From Rikenellaceae bacterium (GTDB lineage Bacteria; Bacteroidota; Bacteroidia; Bacteroidales; Rikenellaceae), in NCBI GenBank assembly GCA_015059715.1, contig SUZV01000001.1, positions 180,948 through 244,947 on the forward strand: a stretch of DNA of 64,000 bases, given 5' to 3'. Shown piece by piece: positions 40,414 through 64,000 of the stretch (positions are counted from its first letter, which is position 1; the number at the start of each line of letters is the position of its first letter). A model generated the notes under the pieces. It was not told where the DNA came from, ran no database searches, and saw nothing but the letters and a program-made list of their open reading frames with translations. Both the position numbers and the translations under genes were made by a program.

Positions 40414-40421
40414 CACCGCAT

Positions 40422-40453: not shown

Positions 40454-40680
40454 GTTGTCTATATCGTTCCTTCGGGTGTCCCACGCTCTATTCGCCGCAA
40501 TGTGAAACAAAGCTTTTATAAAAAAGCATACGACCTTTTCGTTAGACCCTATTTCAGAGTCGGACAGAGCGGATTTTTAAGAAGTATTTGATTGACAAAG
40601 TATTAGGTTGTTTGAGTTCGGAGCAATTTGATGCCAAAATACGCTTAAACCTTTATTTTACGAAGATTATACTCTTCTTA

Positions 40681-40697
40681 TGTAGTCTTCTATGTAG
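40681..40697 (+). repeat. Direct repeat copy 1 (possible attachment core)
   Basis: TGTAGTCTTCTATGTAG, followed by CCTAAATTAAG. Identical 17-mers occur at 45825 and 63589. Copies 1 and 3 also share CTAAATTAAG on the right and CGCTTAAAC upstream. Confidence 0.85.
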
Positions 40698-40793
40698 CCT
40701 AAATTAAGACTAATTAAGTGAAGACACTTATACCTCTTATTTCAATTTTGATAAAAAAATATCATCGAAGGAGCGTATTTCAAGAAAATGTTT

Positions 40794-40819
40794 TACCTTT
40801 GCGTCTGACATTAGTGTCA
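40794..40819 (+). promoter_or_regulatory. -7 box with overlapping palindrome, probable TetR operator
   Basis: TACCTTTG (40794-40801) is followed by TGACA-TTAG-TGTCA (40806-40819), a palindrome where transcription would start. Its position and symmetry are those of a TetR-type operator, and a TetR gene ends this operon. Binding is inferred. Confidence 0.55.
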
Positions 40820-40844
40820 AACACATAAGAAAAATCTCGGAAAT

Positions 40845-43800
40845 ATGCTACGATTGGGTCTTGATATTGGCTCTACAACCGTGAAATTGGTCGCCATTGA
40901 CGATGGCGGCAAAGTCTGTTTTACCCGTTACGGCAGGCACAACGCCCAAATGGGCGAGGTGGTACAGGCTTTTCTTGCAGAGCTACTCGGTGAGGTTGGC
41001 GATACGGAGGTGTCGTTAAGGGTAACAGGCTCGGTGGGTATGGGTCTGTCGGAGAGGTACAGCCTCCCATTTGTGCAGGAGGTGGTGGCCGCAACCAAGG
41101 CGGTACAGAACTTATATCGCTCAGCCAATACAATGATTGACATTGGCGGCGAGGACGCAAAGATCGTCTTCTTCAAAGATGGCGAAGCCGAGGACTTGCG
41201 TATGAATGGTAACTGTGCAGGTGGCACGGGAGCATTTATCGACCAGATGGCAATAATCTTGGGCGTTACGGCTGACGGGCTAAACGATTTAGCGTTGCAA
41301 GCAACACGCACCTATCCCATTGCCTCGCGCTGTGGTGTCTTCTGCAAGACAGATATTCAAAATCTTGTTGCCAAAAATGTGAGCCGAGAGAATATCGCAG
41401 CGTCAATCTTTCACGCCGTAGCCGTACAAACCGTAACGACATTGGCGCACGGATATGACATCAAACCGCCCGTTCTGTTTTGCGGTGGTCCGCTGACATT
41501 CGTGCCTGCTCTTCGCAAGGCATTTAAGAGCTACCTATCGTTCAACGATTCGGATATTATCCTCCCCGAATATGGCGAGTTGATACCTGCTTACGGCACA
41601 GCATTGGCGAGCACCAATAATGAGCGTTCAGAGTCGCTATATGCGCTTATCACCCGTTTGAAGGATACTCCGCAGACTACCGACCGAGCAAAGACGACAT
41701 TGCCCCCAATTTTTGAAGACTCCGATAGTTATCGTTTGTGGCGAGAGCGCATTGCACGACACCATATTCCCAAAGCAGAACTTGCGAGTGGCGAGCAACG
41801 AGCCTTTATCGGCATTGATTCTGGCTCGACAACAACCAAAATTGTCGTAACAAACGAGCAAGGCGAGTTGCTCTACACCTTCTATAAAAACAATGGCGGT
41901 AATCCGATAGAGTGCGTATCCGAGGGATTGAGGTTGCTCGACGTAATGTGCAAGGAACGAGGCACGGAACTGCAATTTGTAGGTAGCTGCTCAACGGGTT
42001 ATGGTGAGGAGCTTATCCGCACAGCGTTCAATCTGCATTCGGGCATTGTCGAAACGATAGCCCACTACAAAGCGGCGCACTATCTTGACCCCAAACTAAG
42101 TTTTATTCTCGACATTGGAGGTCAGGATATGAAGGCTATATTTGTCAATAACGGCATCATCGACCGCATCGAGATTAACGAAGCCTGCTCGTCGGGTTGT
42201 GGCTCGTTTATCGAGACATTTGCCAAGAGTTTAGGCTACTCCGTAGAGGAGTTTGCCCAGCAAGCGTGTGAGTCGAAGTTGCCTGCCGACCTCGGCACTC
42301 GCTGCACGGTATTTATGAACTCGAAGGTCAAGCAGGTGTTGCGTGAGGGTGCTACCGTTGCCGATATTTCGGCAGGACTCGCCTACTCGGTGGTAAAGAA
42401 CTGCCTATACAAAGTGATGAAACTCAAAGATGTGGCAATACTCGGTAAGCATATCGTGGTGCAGGGTGGAACGATGCGTAACGATGCCATAGTGCGTGCA
42501 TTGGAACTGCTGACCGAAGCCGAGGTTTCACGATGTGATTGTCCCGAATTGATGGGTGCATTCGGCTGTACCCTCTACGCTGCGGAGCACAGTGGCAAGA
42601 CGATAACACTCGACCAGATGTTGGCTACGGCAACCTATACCACACGCACTATTACCTGTCGTGGTTGCGAGAATTGTTGCGAGGTGCAGCAATACAACTT
42701 CGGCAATGACCGCCATTACTATTCGGGCAACCGTTGCGAAAAACATTTCAACAATAGCGGAGAGGAGAAAACTGCGGGACAAAATATGTACGAAGTCAAG
42801 AACGAGTTGCTTTTTGTCCGTAAGGCTGAAATAACAAACCCCAAGATGACTATCGGCATACCACGAGTGTTGAATATGTTTGAGGAGTATCCATTCTGGC
42901 ATACGCTCTTTACGCAGTGTGGTATTGCGGTGTGTCTGTCCGACCAATCGGACTACTCTCGATATGAGGAGAGTGCGCGAATGGTGATGTCGGATAATAT
43001 CTGCTTCCCTGCCAAGCTTGTGCATAGCCATATTGCCAATCTTGCAAAGCAGGGCGTGGATAGAATCTTTATGCCCTTTGTTGTCTATGAGCAGGGTGGT
43101 GAGGGCGACCAGAATAGCTACAACTGCCCGATTGTTACCGCCTACTCGACGGTGGTTAAGAGCGTGGAGCAGACCACTATCCCTATCGACAGCCCCACCA
43201 TTAGTTTTAAGGACGGCAATCTGTTATACAAGCAGTGTCGAAGCTATCTGCGTTCGTTGGGCATATCATCGAGCGAGATTGTTGATGCCTTCCTCAAAGC
43301 TGAGGAGGAGCAGGCGGCATATCATCGAAAGGTAGCCGAGCAGAACCAAAAGGCGCTGTGTAAGGCACAAATGTTTGAACGACTATCCATTCTTCTCGCT
43401 GGTCGCCCCTACCACGCCGACCCTCTGATTCAGCACAAGGTATCGAATATGCTTGCAGAGATGGGCATAACCGTACTGACCGAGGATATAGTGCGTGGCG
43501 AAGAGGTGGACATTAAGGATACACATTTTCTGGCGCAATGGTCATATCCCAACCGCATAATGCGTGCGGCAAAGTGGTGTGCGGAGCAGGGCGACGATGT
43601 GCAGTTTGTGCAGATGACATCGTTCGGTTGCGGCCCCGATGCCTTCATTGTCGATGAGGTGCGAGATTTATTGCTGCGCCACAACCGAGCCTACACCCTG
43701 TTGAAACTCGACGACATCAACAATATCGGCTCAATGAAACTGCGTGTTCGCTCGCTGGTCGAAAGCCTGAAAATGGCAAACGAGAGGCGAGAGAGGCGCA

Positions 43801-45059
43801 CTGCGAAGGAGTTCGTTACCACACCCGCGTATGACGAGAACTACCGCCAGCGCAAGATTCTCATTCCGTTCTTCACATCGTTTATCTCTCCGCTTCTGCC
43901 AGCCATAATGCGTGTTGCGGGGTATGATGCCGAGTGCCTGCCGATGAGCAACGAACAATCTTCGGAGTGGGGATTGAGGTATGCCAACAATGAGGTGTGC
44001 TATCCCGCAACGCTTGTTATTGGCGACATAATAAAGGCATTCAAGGAGGGTCATTACAACCCTTCGGAGGTGGCGGTAGGTATTACGCAGACGGGCGGGC
44101 AATGCCGCGCATCGAACTATCTGCCAATGCTCAAAAAGGCACTTGTCGATGCGGGTTATACCGATACGCCCGTTATCTCACTCACCTTTGGCGACGACCT
44201 CGACAATAATCAACCTGCGCTCAAAATCAATTGGGCGAAGATGTTGCCTGTTGCCCTGCGTGCTGTGCTGTATAGCGATGTTATCAATAAATTCTACCAC
44301 GCCACCGTTGTGCGTGAGAGATATTCAGGAGCAGCTGCCGATTTACGAAATGTCTACTTGAAGGTTGGCGCAGAACTGATTGAGGAGGGCAATAGTCAAG
44401 AGCTGTATAAATATATGGATTTAGCGGCGGAGGAGTTTGATTCCGCCTGCCTTGACAGGCAATGCCCAAAGGTCGGTGTTGTTGGTGAGATATATCTCAA
44501 ATTCAACAACTTCGCACAACGCGGTATCGTTGATTGGCTTACGGAGCAGAGAGTTGAGGTTGTGCCTCCCGTACTTGCAGACTTCTTTACACAAACCTTT
44601 GTCAATCGCAAGGCTAATGTTGCGGCACAAATCGAGAAACACAAAATATCGGATTATCTGATTGGTTTAGGCTACCACTTGGTGCGCTCCGAGATTCGAA
44701 AAGTGAATAAGATATGCTCCAAATTTCGCTACTTCACCCCATTTGGGGAGATCTTCCACGAAGCCGAACTTGCGAAAAATGTCATCTCGCTCAATGCCCA
44801 ATTTGGCGAGGGCTGGCTGCTTCCTGCCGAGATTATATCCTATGCCGAGAGTGGTGTTAAGAGCGTCATCAGCCTGCAACCTTTTGGTTGCATCGCAAAC
44901 CATATCGTGTCGAAGGGTGTAGAAAAAAGGATAAAAAGACTATATCCTGCGATAAATTTATTATCTTTGGACTTCGATAGTGGCGTAAGCGATGTGAATA
45001 TCAAGAACCGCCTATTGCTATTTATCGACAAATTGAAGGAAAATTACGATGGAGAATAA
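40845..45059 (+). CDS. Fused double acyl-CoA dehydratase activase / 2-hydroxyacyl-CoA dehydratase-like protein
   Basis: 1404 aa. Residues 1-255 form an ASKHA ATPase of the BadF/HgdC activase type (LGLDIGSTTVKLV; cluster cysteines in NGNCAGGTGAF and SRCGVFCKTD). Residues 320-590 are a second one (FIGIDSGSTTTKIVV; NEACSSGCGSF and GTRCTVFMNS). A Cys-rich linker (TCRGCENCCEV) is followed by a DUF2229-like part (IGIPRVLNMFEEYPFW, about 660) and an HgdB-like dehydratase part (LLAGRPYHADP, NEVCYPATLVIGD, ITQTGGQCRASNY). In the family, ATP hydrolysis drives an electron to a very low potential. Having both activase halves in one chain could hold the [4Fe-4S] cluster intramolecularly. Substrate unknown; related fused proteins are widespread in anaerobes and uncharacterised. 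Overlaps the TetR gene by 11 nt. GAA and CAA codons are more frequent than in neighbouring core genes. Confidence 0.85.
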   Translation: MLRLGLDIGSTTVKLVAIDDGGKVCFTRYGRHNAQMGEVVQAFLAELLGEVGDTEVSLRVTGSVGMGLSERYSLPFVQEVVAATKAVQNLYRSANTMIDIGGEDAKIVFFKDGEAEDLRMNGNCAGGTGAFIDQMAIILGVTADGLNDLALQATRTYPIASRCGVFCKTDIQNLVAKNVSRENIAASIFHAVAVQTVTTLAHGYDIKPPVLFCGGPLTFVPALRKAFKSYLSFNDSDIILPEYGELIPAYGTALASTNNERSESLYALITRLKDTPQTTDRAKTTLPPIFEDSDSYRLWRERIARHHIPKAELASGEQRAFIGIDSGSTTTKIVVTNEQGELLYTFYKNNGGNPIECVSEGLRLLDVMCKERGTELQFVGSCSTGYGEELIRTAFNLHSGIVETIAHYKAAHYLDPKLSFILDIGGQDMKAIFVNNGIIDRIEINEACSSGCGSFIETFAKSLGYSVEEFAQQACESKLPADLGTRCTVFMNSKVKQVLREGATVADISAGLAYSVVKNCLYKVMKLKDVAILGKHIVVQGGTMRNDAIVRALELLTEAEVSRCDCPELMGAFGCTLYAAEHSGKTITLDQMLATATYTTRTITCRGCENCCEVQQYNFGNDRHYYSGNRCEKHFNNSGEEKTAGQNMYEVKNELLFVRKAEITNPKMTIGIPRVLNMFEEYPFWHTLFTQCGIAVCLSDQSDYSRYEESARMVMSDNICFPAKLVHSHIANLAKQGVDRIFMPFVVYEQGGEGDQNSYNCPIVTAYSTVVKSVEQTTIPIDSPTISFKDGNLLYKQCRSYLRSLGISSSEIVDAFLKAEEEQAAYHRKVAEQNQKALCKAQMFERLSILLAGRPYHADPLIQHKVSNMLAEMGITVLTEDIVRGEEVDIKDTHFLAQWSYPNRIMRAAKWCAEQGDDVQFVQMTSFGCGPDAFIVDEVRDLLLRHNRAYTLLKLDDINNIGSMKLRVRSLVESLKMANERRERRTAKEFVTTPAYDENYRQRKILIPFFTSFISPLLPAIMRVAGYDAECLPMSNEQSSEWGLRYANNEVCYPATLVIGDIIKAFKEGHYNPSEVAVGITQTGGQCRASNYLPMLKKALVDAGYTDTPVISLTFGDDLDNNQPALKINWAKMLPVALRAVLYSDVINKFYHATVVRERYSGAAADLRNVYLKVGAELIEEGNSQELYKYMDLAAEEFDSACLDRQCPKVGVVGEIYLKFNNFAQRGIVDWLTEQRVEVVPPVLADFFTQTFVNRKANVAAQIEKHKISDYLIGLGYHLVRSEIRKVNKICSKFRYFTPFGEIFHEAELAKNVISLNAQFGEGWLLPAEIISYAESGVKSVISLQPFGCIANHIVSKGVEKRIKRLYPAINLLSLDFDSGVSDVNIKNRLLLFIDKLKENYDGE

Positions 45060-45648
45060 GATTATAGATGCTGCCCGTAGCGTATTTATCGAAAAGGGTT
45101 ATGCCGAAACAAGTATGAGCGAGATTGCTGCCCGTGTTGGTATAAATCGCCCCGCTCTGCACTACTATTTCCGCACCAAAGACAAGATGTTTCAGGCGGT
45201 ATTCGGCAGTATCGTATCATCGGTGATACCTAAGGTTTTTGAGGCATTGACCCATAGGGAGAAGAGTATTGCACAAAGAGTCGAGAGTATTATTGATGCT
45301 TACTACACTCTGTTTTTGGAGAATCCACGATTGCCGATGTTTATGCTCAGAGAACTCAATCGTGATTCGGACCTGCTGATTAAAACCATACAGCAGCTCA
45401 ATGTTATGGATACGGCTCGTAAAGCCCTAGCCTCGGTACAGGAGGAGATGAACGAGGGAAAACTTAAAAAGGTGTCGCTGCAAATCGCCTTCTACAATTT
45501 TTATAGTTTGCTCACCTTCCCATTCCTTACAAGGGTTGTTTCAACAAAGGTCTTCCAAAACGATGACAAAGATTTTCTCACGATGCTTTCGGAGTGGAAA
45601 CAGAACATCATCTCCCAAATGGAGAATCTCTTGGAGGAAAAACAGTAG
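45049..45648 (+). CDS. TetR/AcrR family transcriptional regulator
   Basis: 199 aa. The N-terminal helix-turn-helix is typical (IIDAARSVFIEKGYAETSMSEIAARVGINRPALHYYFRTKDKMF, residues 4-48), followed by a ligand-binding helical domain of unknown specificity. It starts inside the end of the activase gene (11-nt overlap), so translation is coupled and it most likely controls that operon, through the palindrome at 40806-40819. The ligand may be an acyl-CoA or other metabolite; this is a guess from context. Confidence 0.92.
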   Translation: MENKIIDAARSVFIEKGYAETSMSEIAARVGINRPALHYYFRTKDKMFQAVFGSIVSSVIPKVFEALTHREKSIAQRVESIIDAYYTLFLENPRLPMFMLRELNRDSDLLIKTIQQLNVMDTARKALASVQEEMNEGKLKKVSLQIAFYNFYSLLTFPFLTRVVSTKVFQNDDKDFLTMLSEWKQNIISQMENLLEEKQ

Positions 45649-45667
45649 CAAAACAGCCTAAACCACT

Positions 45668-45718
45668 ACAATAGTAGCGTATGTAGTGAACTGTGTAGTT
45701 CCTTCATACACCACTATT
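45668..45718 (+). repeat. Three-tier nested hairpin after the TetR gene
   Basis: CAATAGT / ACTATTG outside, GTATG / CATAC in the middle, GAACT / AGTTC inside with a GTGT loop, separated by small internal loops. No T tract follows, so it is not a typical terminator. Could be an RNA element or a structural part of the segment boundary. Confidence 0.6.
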
Positions 45719-45824
45719 GTCTGTTCGCATTACATCTTTGTAAGATACTTGATTTCAGGGCTTTACTTTCAAAAACATTGTCTTTCTTTGTACTCGCAGT
45801 TAGTTGGCCTAATTATGACCTTCG

Positions 45825-45841
45825 TGTAGTCTTCTATGTAG
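45825..45841 (+). repeat. Direct repeat copy 2 (right boundary of the activase segment)
   Basis: TGTAGTCTTCTATGTAG, same orientation as copy 1, 5.1 kb downstream. Just inside it lies CCTAATTATGACC, similar to CCTAAATTAAGAC just inside copy 1. Confidence 0.85.
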
Positions 45842-45885
45842 TATTTCGCTTGTCTTCGTAAAAACTAACACTGAAAATCATTTTA

Positions 45886-45921
45886 AGCAAAAAAAGAGGT
45901 CTTCCCTTGCGGAAAGACCTC
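45886..45921 (-). terminator. Terminator of the exbB-exbD operon
   Basis: GAGGTCTTCC / GGAAAGACCTC, about 10 bp, with the minus strand continuing into seven T's. It lies 25 nt after the last ExbD stop. Confidence 0.9.
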
Positions 45922-45945
45922 ATAGAAGAGTTTATCATCGTGTCA

Positions 45946-53714: not shown

Positions 53715-54061
53715 TAGTGACAGAGAAAAAGTTACAATCGAGAGCCTGCCCGCTCTCTATTTAGATAGGTGTCAGAGAGTTTTTTTTGTGAGTAGGTATG
53801 TAGGTGCGCTCGCACGCAGCGAGCTCAAGGAGTAGTTTAAGGGTTTTCGTTATTGCGGATTGTTGTGATACTCGACCTCTTAATGTCTTATGGTCTTATC
53901 GTCTTAATGTCCTAAAAGAATAAAGACTATAGGACAATAGGACAATAAGATGGTTGCGGACAAAAATTTCTCCCTGTTGTGTTTTGTTGTGATACTCGAC
54001 CTCTTAATGTCTTATGGTCTTAACGTCTTAATGTCCTAAAAAAATAAAGACAATAAAGTAA
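53715..54061. other. Repeat-rich gap between glnA and EF-G2
   Basis: No gene seen. It contains a small GC hairpin, GCTCGC/GCGAGC (53808-53824), and the 67-bp duplicated repeat described separately. Confidence 0.5.
53861..54051. repeat. 67-bp direct repeat built of 8-bp units
   Basis: Copies at 53861-53927 and 53985-54051 differ at two positions. Inside each, four octamers in a row follow TCTTAATG, TCTTATGG, TCTTATCG and TCTTAATG, then TCCTAAAA. Right of copy A lies TAGGACAATAAG, nearly the inverse of CTTAATGTCCTA, so the first copy can also fold. No coding potential. Confidence 0.9.
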
Positions 54062-63423: not shown

Positions 63424-63473
63424 CGATGTGATGATACCATACAACAAAGGCTGCCATTCAGACTGTCCTTTTT

Positions 63474-63512
63474 CGGCGGTGAAAATCAATTCACTGCCGA
63501 TTTTATTTATTT
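63474..63512 (+). terminator. Terminator of the ricT-rlmD run
   Basis: CGGCGGTGAA / TTCACTGCCG (10 bp, one wobble), 6-nt loop, then ATTTTATTTATTT. Confidence 0.9.
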
Positions 63513-63588
63513 ACAATAGGTTAGGCTGTTGGGTTATGAAACGACTTTTATGCAAAAAACCGCTTAAACTCCAATCCTGCTCTTGGCG

Positions 63589-63605
63589 TGTAGTCTTCTA
63601 TGTAG
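63589..63605 (+). repeat. Direct repeat copy 3
   Basis: TGTAGTCTTCTATGTAG followed by TCTAAATTAAG; CGCTTAAAC lies about 27 nt upstream of it, as it does (at 43 nt) upstream of copy 1. It may be the left end of an element continuing beyond the window. Confidence 0.85.
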
Positions 63606-63825
63606 TCTAAATTAAGTGTAAATAATCAACCTACTGTTTAATCACCTATTGCGGACAGGCAAGAGGTGATTTTTCTATTTTATTCGAACAAGACCCCAAA
63701 AGAGTATTGTCATTTGCGAAAATATAATCGGCAAAACGATTTGTACAACTTTGTAAAACGAAATGTGCAAAAATCCAAAATTTTTGCGAGCGTTTGAAGC
63801 GACCATTTGAGCGGGAATTAAACGC

Positions 63826-63858
63826 TTTTCAAACACTATTCAAACGATATTCAAAAGC
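63826..63858. repeat. Three 11-bp TTCAAA repeats
   Basis: TTTTCAAACAC, TATTCAAACGA, TATTCAAAAGC in direct succession; an inverted relative, CGTTTGAA, lies at 63791-63798. The layout is iteron-like, but no replication or mobilisation gene is visible. Confidence 0.55.
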
Positions 63859-63860
63859 AA

Positions 63861-63890
63861 ACCGCTGCGACATTTCCATCGCAGCGGTCT
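63861..63890 (-). terminator. Terminator of the right-edge gene
   Basis: ACCGCTGCGA / TCGCAGCGGT, perfect 10-bp stem with 8-nt loop, 3 nt after the stop codon of the minus-strand partial gene. Minus-strand tail is TTGCTTTTGA. Confidence 0.85.
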
Positions 63891-63892
63891 TT

Positions 63893-64000
63893 TTATGCAG
63901 CAACCTTTTCGAGTATCTCGTGGCAATTATCCTTTATTTTTCGCGTGTCTCGCTTCCATTCCGACAGCGTAAAACCTTTTTCGTATTGAGGGTAAGGTTT
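63893..64000 (-). CDS. Unknown gene, C-terminal end only (cut by window edge)
   Basis: 35 residues visible, reading KPYPQYEKGFTLSEW, KRDTRKIKDNCHEI, then LEKVAA and stop. Not recognised. Followed closely by a perfect hairpin terminator, which supports a real gene. Together with the repeats next to it, it may belong to an accessory element. Confidence 0.6.
   Translation of the reverse strand, partial: KPYPQYEKGFTLSEWKRDTRKIKDNCHEILEKVAA

Follow-up and report, generated by a model that had tools for sequence, protein, structure and literature searches.

A likely decayed member of an Alistipes family of recombinase-less cassettes that shares its ends with integrase-bearing elements and appears to insert into terminator loops

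The activase–TetR segment of the window (the whole stretch of 64,000 nucleotides analysed here) has, we believe, decayed and belongs, as a recombinase-less member, to an Alistipes family of terminator-loop cassettes: a family that shares its ends with elements carrying a CTnDOT-like integrase and a terminase, and whose members would be moved in trans. This reading appears to us likely. Comparison of genome sequences places the segment among small cassettes, both ends of which are common to an integrase-carrying, phage-like element, and leads us to conclude that the family inserts into the loops of terminators. A preliminary description had proposed an integrated cassette without a recombinase, which would depend on movement in trans or be a remnant; the core of that idea is supported, but the boundaries and the site were wrong.

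Two exact copies of a 17-bp sequence, at 40681–40697 and 45825–45841 on one strand, surround the segment in the same orientation, just as first described; a third exact copy, at 63589–63605, had been missed. With up to three mismatches allowed, the 64-kb window yields these three, all exact, against 0.11 expected by chance. The window's own genome holds six exact copies (0 in a backwards-read control), and among 81 genomes searched the exact 17-mer was present in 19 of 49 from the genus, the own one counted, and in 0 of 32 from outside it. The named relatives are Alistipes MAGs from animal guts. To search genomes with the 17-mer, and look between the copies, had been proposed at the outset: in many Alistipes genomes the copies mark left and right ends with variable cargo between them. 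The contrary prospect, that the motif is scattered and regulatory and that empty sites do not exist, is half right: the motif is dispersed, but as a component of element ends. The conserved ends of the window element span about 40541 to 45896, which makes it ~5.35 kb rather than 5.1 kb. The features of the window are as follows.

40521–40551, + strand: left outer junction, with presumed host half-hairpin (AAAAAAGCATACGACC), short spacer and element half-arm GTTAGACCCTA
40552–40765, + strand: La-type left end, outer half kept, inner palindrome half and integrase gene missing (nhmmer profile, 151.9 bits; compared with the intact La of L089–L094)
40679–40697, + strand: subterminal tandem motif TATGTAG-TCTTC-TATGTAG, which includes 17-mer copy 1; proposed arm-type integrase-binding site
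40845–45059, + strand: cargo gene 1, a 1404-aa acyl-CoA dehydratase activase-like protein (Pfam BcrAD_BadFG and DUF2229, 2e-68 and 4.5e-74)
45049–45648, + strand: cargo gene 2, a 199-aa TetR-family regulator (Pfam TetR_N, 6.8e-19)
45668–45896, + strand: R-type right end (nhmmer profile, 205.3 bits)
45672–45716, + strand: stem-loop within the R end, GCGTATG...CATACRC (9-bp consensus stem in 21 R ends)
45680–45698, + strand: second tandem motif, TATGTAG-TGAAC-TGTGTAG, 143 bp ahead of the R-end 17-mer motif (same spacing in six elements)
45823–45841, + strand: subterminal tandem motif CGTGTAG-TCTTC-TATGTAG, which includes 17-mer copy 2
45890–45934, no strand assigned: right outer junction, the terminator of convergent exbD and presumed target site (sequence AGAGGTCTTCCC-TTGC-GGAAAGACCTC)
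63440–63464, + strand: left junction of a second element, host half-hairpin (AACAAAGGCTGCC)
63465–63677, + strand: Lb-type left end of this second family member, which is cut off by the contig end, also the window end (nhmmer profile, 185.7 bits)
63587–63605, + strand: subterminal tandem motif CGTGTAG-TCTTC-TATGTAG, 17-mer copy 3

The second family member thus occupies 63465–64000 of the window. The related CCTAA-TTA-GAC sequences remarked upon just inside each repeat are present and belong to the longer conserved ends, and the counts agree with the claim that the operon is richer in GAA and CAA codons (28/114 and 28/59) than the other open reading frames of the window (83/1123 and 67/499). 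GTTAGACCCT also opens the element in L077, L085, L090 and L091, and terminator-like hairpins are found at the exbD 3′ end in congeners. The upstream tRNA gene is real – a tRNA-Met that ends at 40414, 267 bp ahead of the left repeat – but its supposed relevance is not borne out, as nothing links it to the element. We rejected it as the attachment site: the tRNA has its own intact terminator, and the element starts ~125 bp further on. The neighbouring tRNA is incidental. Elsewhere in the window (53860–54056) are two short repeats that match a single stretch close to the end of the own contig C7 at 91–95% identity.

When the copies of the 17-mer are aligned, each marks one of two end types, a left end (L, ~200 bp) or a right end (R, ~230 bp). 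R runs from a stem-loop through TGATTTCAGTGCTTTA... and the 17-mer to CACTGAAAATCAATCAGTTAAAAATTAAAA. L exists in two forms: La, which directly precedes an integrase gene and lies inside a ~170-nt palindrome, and Lb, without integrase, which starts TTTTTCGGCGGTGAA...TTCACCGCCG. Three profiles (La, Lb and R), searched with nhmmer, recover ends at many loci. L and R occur as ordered pairs on the same strand, separated by 1.6 to 5.3 kb, and enclose unrelated cargo: BspA-like leucine-rich proteins, lipoproteins, a 5′-nucleotidase-like protein, Sel1 repeats, a PD-T4-3 homologue and, in the window, the activase and TetR genes. Many cassettes have an Lb end, no integrase trace and small, compact cargo that reaches from L to R, and R ends are usually followed by a convergent gene. 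Across genera the La palindrome has been conserved, 11 of its pairs having changed in both arms, and the R stem has five such pairs; these structures may act as RNA folds, as single-stranded DNA folds, or simply as inverted protein sites.

Several individual cassettes deserve mention. At L027 (10208–10453, own contig C9) Lb joins the start of R directly, with no cargo and the rest of R missing, giving a miniature, MITE-like member. The cargo at L083 (3250–3966) is a GIY-YIG protein that matches the PD-T4-3 defence model (9.8e-65), and at L029, L082 and L121 a BspA-like leucine-rich protein followed by a 126–156-aa ATPase-like protein forms a recurring cargo pair beside R ends. The genomes are MAGs with many contig breaks, and many L/R ends lie less than 700 bp from a contig end (own C7, C17 and C20; G004:C14, G038:C6, G005:C47 and others); repeats inside cassettes, or mixed populations, could have broken the assembly there.

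The nature of the target emerges from the outer edges of the elements, which split host intrinsic terminators and leave half a hairpin on each side. At the left edge conserved sequence starts as half a terminator hairpin, the other half of which is locus-specific host sequence; at the right edge conserved sequence stops before the complementary host half. The two host halves at L122, 2.9 kb apart, are perfect complements (23/23 bp), and those of L082, L108, L026, L128 and L124 are also strongly complementary; weak pairs are seen at L070, L071 and the window copy. For 11 pairs of related elements, with arm boundaries picked by eye from the junctions before scoring, 0 of 20,000 re-pairings were as good in summed complementarity. 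A direct empty-site test is provided by a sister cassette, L082 (3.7 kb, beside the V-ATPase K gene of G039), the host halves of which lie apart: in four congeners (G027, G034, G020 and G008) the site is empty, the flanks are adjacent, and one intact terminator, AAAAAGGCTGTCC-n4/5-GGACAGCCTTTTT, stands there – in G008 a single perfect one, AAAAAAGGCTGTCC-GCATT-GGACAGCCTTTTTT. The occupied site of L082 is distinguished from these empty ones by the precisely inserted element. A search for the empty site of L108 via its mutB flank gave left-flank matches only, with no adjacent right flank. Intrinsic terminators are natural inverted repeats, with arms of ~10 bp around a spacer of 4–7 bp, and therefore have the layout of a tyrosine-recombinase core site. 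We found nothing on point concerning terminator-targeting tyrosine integrases in the open-access literature, although such work may well have been published.

A critical issue is the role of the 17-mer, which had been taken for the element's end and integration core. That the 17-mers are crossover cores (attL and attR), and that the mobile unit is exactly 40681–45841, is suggested by their exact identity and shared orientation around a compositionally distinct operon, and by the observation that in some copies the inner flanks of L are more different than the outer ones. We nevertheless judge this highly improbable, because conserved element sequence goes on beyond both repeats, sister-cassette empty sites are terminators rather than lone 17-mers, and no copy that was read stands in an empty-site context, with left-outside sequence joined to right-outside. 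A crossover core, moreover, is expected to be identical when created, whereas protein-binding motifs may differ, and the paired copies do differ within single elements (L108, L083, L122, L026, L082 and L088); in L108 the spacers are TCTTT and CCTTA. With no single-copy junctions, mismatched copies and conserved sequence outside, the crossover core is contradicted for the family and was rejected. The 17-mer is instead part of a TRTGTAG-n5-TATGTAG tandem with a 12-bp period, located about 100–130 bp inside the L edge and ~55 bp inside the R edge; in six elements a further tandem lies in R, 143 bp deeper inside. Tandem motifs lie inside both ends and are retained alongside the integrase across genera. 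An arm-binding domain is a feature of CTnDOT-subgroup integrases, and for IntDOT the binding of subterminal arm sites has been shown (PMC8138268). This, together with the differences between copies within elements, leads us to read the tandem TRTGTAG motif as, most probably, an arm-type site to which the N-terminal domain of the integrase would bind.

As to the enzyme, the L end is linked to an integrase gene: in G029, G004, G046 and others La is followed, ~80 bp on, by an intact 425-aa protein with Phage_int_SAM_5 and Phage_integrase domains. G004, G029 and G046 also hold separate R ends, so that integrase and cassette ends reside in one genome. Relatives of this integrase with 71–76% identity occur in isolates of Bacteroides and Phocaeicola, and remoter ones (39–45%) in Butyricimonas and B. 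oleiciplenus; among the carriers of the integrase are the cultured type strains B. gallinarum DSM 18171, P. coprophilus DSM 18228 and B. ndongoniae. YATGTAG-n5-YATGTAG stands upstream of nearly all these genes, in Alistipes through to Butyricimonas, those with 39–45% protein identity included. In three Bacteroides/Phocaeicola copies of one element the differences run exactly as far as a terminator half (GGCACACCCTTTTTT), which indicates that they too sit in terminators. At L088 and L108 La is followed by a broken integrase start, cargo and R, and the integrase family is thereby tied to the R end as well. Near-full-length integrases (76–100% identity) were detected in 6 of 101 genomes of the genus, and strong homologues in 3 of 295 genomes of the order. 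No complete element with an intact integrase and both ends was recovered; for L096/L146 no right end was found in 17.6 kb downstream. The preliminary description had rightly noted the lack of a recombinase in the window segment, and its own assembled genome (92% complete) has no homologue of the family integrase either.

Several integrase-bearing elements carry a DUF5675 gene, a large terminase (PF04466; PHROG terminase) and a connector-like gene. The terminase of one (L089, 12849–15539) is broken by an in-frame insertion, a LAGLIDADG/homing-endonuclease region that is probably an intein. Another (L146, 7412–19354, reverse complement) has genes for HlyD-like, peptide-exporter-like and small secreted proteins downstream of its terminase genes, and at L143 and L145 (G067:C113) two family-integrase homologues (46% and 41%) lie in tandem, ~340 bp apart.

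Evidence that cassettes move as units comes from a single BspA/AAA cassette that is 88–92% identical, ends included, at different terminators in two species: in G039 it follows the V-ATPase K gene, and in G038 it occupies an acyl-CoA-dehydrogenase/ffh terminator and is divided between two contigs, its host halves matching. That cassettes are moved in trans is the simplest reading and probably the correct one. Whether cassettes are instead mere dead deletion remnants of integrase-bearing elements, comparable to CIMEs and without movement in trans, has to be weighed against it. The short broken integrase starts kept in L077, L081, L088 and L108 are what such decay would leave, as are the degraded ends and mismatched host halves of the window copy, and the BspA/AAA cargo could have come to both terminators with a longer element since lost. 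Yet many Lb cassettes are small and compact with no integrase trace, and independent deletions would not yield one cassette, with its ends, at two unrelated terminators in two species. We regard the remnant explanation as rather unlikely. Scarcely credible is the notion that L and R represent dispersed repeats of a regulatory or structural kind, such as promoter or terminator modules, and not the ends of mobile elements: they do hold stem-loops and terminator-like segments, lie between genes, and R usually has a convergent gene after it, but they form ordered L-to-R pairs around unrelated cargo, they split terminators, and at empty sites both ends and the cargo are missing together, which contradicts this reading for the family.

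The window copy itself is less tidy. Both end types are present, integration and transfer genes are absent, and the junctions do not rebuild one target: the host halves are not complementary (score 4 vs a cross-pair mean of 5.6). To align the locus with close relatives lacking the operon had been suggested, with a single 17-mer expected at the empty site. The window-locus empty site was sought via the left and right flanks and no clean one was found, nor were the flanks adjacent in any congener examined; the empty sites that do exist, those of a sister cassette, are intact terminators and not single 17-mers. G035 keeps omp and tRNA-Met with a different downstream gene, and via the right flank no clean empty site is to be had because the neighbours of exbD vary. 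Given the mismatched host halves and the variable order of the flanks, no single clean insertion could be reconstructed. The activase–TetR operon is rare, being present in 4 of 101 genomes, that is, in three other Alistipes genomes besides the own one, and family ends were not found around it in the closest copy or in the other copies read. Most likely the window copy is a decayed element that carries, or has captured, this rare operon; it would have entered by the same route as its sisters and decayed thereafter.

Taken together these data suggest a mechanism. The element would be inserted by recombination within the hairpin loop of an intrinsic terminator, a reaction probably catalysed by the linked CTnDOT-like integrase, and one hybrid hairpin would be left per junction. 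The integrase N-terminal domain would bind the tandem TRTGTAG-n5-TATGTAG motif inside each end, a candidate arm-type site, and cassettes that retain both ends, their integrase lost or replaced by cargo, could be moved in trans by an integrase-bearing relative. With moderate confidence we extend this to a broader proposal, based on sequence comparison: that a tyrosine integrase of satellite-like elements in Bacteroidales uses ordinary terminator loops as attachment sites and spreads end-only cassettes of one to a few genes between species in trans, creating a dispersed, integron-like gene pool. Every suitable terminator would then be a low-cost docking site. Short recombinase-less genomic islands are common and usually go unexplained; for this family we can name the ends, the target and the likely helper integrase, so that end sequences can serve to find cassettes. 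If terminator-loop integration is true, many chromosomal sites are usable, genes stay unbroken and a hairpin is left at each border, which would also provide a candidate tool for integration at multiple sites in gut Bacteroidales.

The family has parallels with several known systems. Like CTnDOT and NBU1 it resides in Bacteroidales and has an integrase with Phage_int_SAM_5 and Phage_integrase domains, and the repeated motifs inside its ends recall the arm sites of CTnDOT (PMC8138268). NBU1, going by a title cited in that source, integrates at a tRNA-Leu gene, whereas this family targets intrinsic terminator loops at many loci; related elements carry terminase genes, and most members are found without an integrase. 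The window segment lacks the tyrosine integrase that relatives sharing its L end possess, and so resembles an autonomous member of the CTnDOT subgroup in its working without being one. The integrase-bearing relatives, with their integrase, HU-like gene, DUF5675, large terminase and connector-like gene, and with no capsid genes in the stretches read, resemble PICI-like phage satellites in gene content; their full right boundaries were not found. The window cassette has neither terminase nor connector-like gene.

CIMEs have lost integration and transfer genes and kept attL and attR (PMC5704250), and the cassettes likewise keep both ends without such genes. The movement ascribed to CIMEs, however, is in cis, through accretion with an element that arrives at one site; the family consists of small, separate cassettes at several unrelated terminators, and no tandem of cassette and integrase element was seen at the window locus. 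CALIN and integron cassettes are movable in trans without an integrase of their own (PMC11389934), as is proposed here, but the family has no attI platform and no tandem array: single cassettes with two different end types lie at scattered loci, each splitting a whole target terminator. With MITEs and mobile insertion cassettes, finally, the family would share ends that are recognised in trans and passenger genes that are optional, the miniature element on contig C9 being itself MITE-like; the difference is that the enzyme linked to the family ends is a tyrosine integrase and not a transposase.
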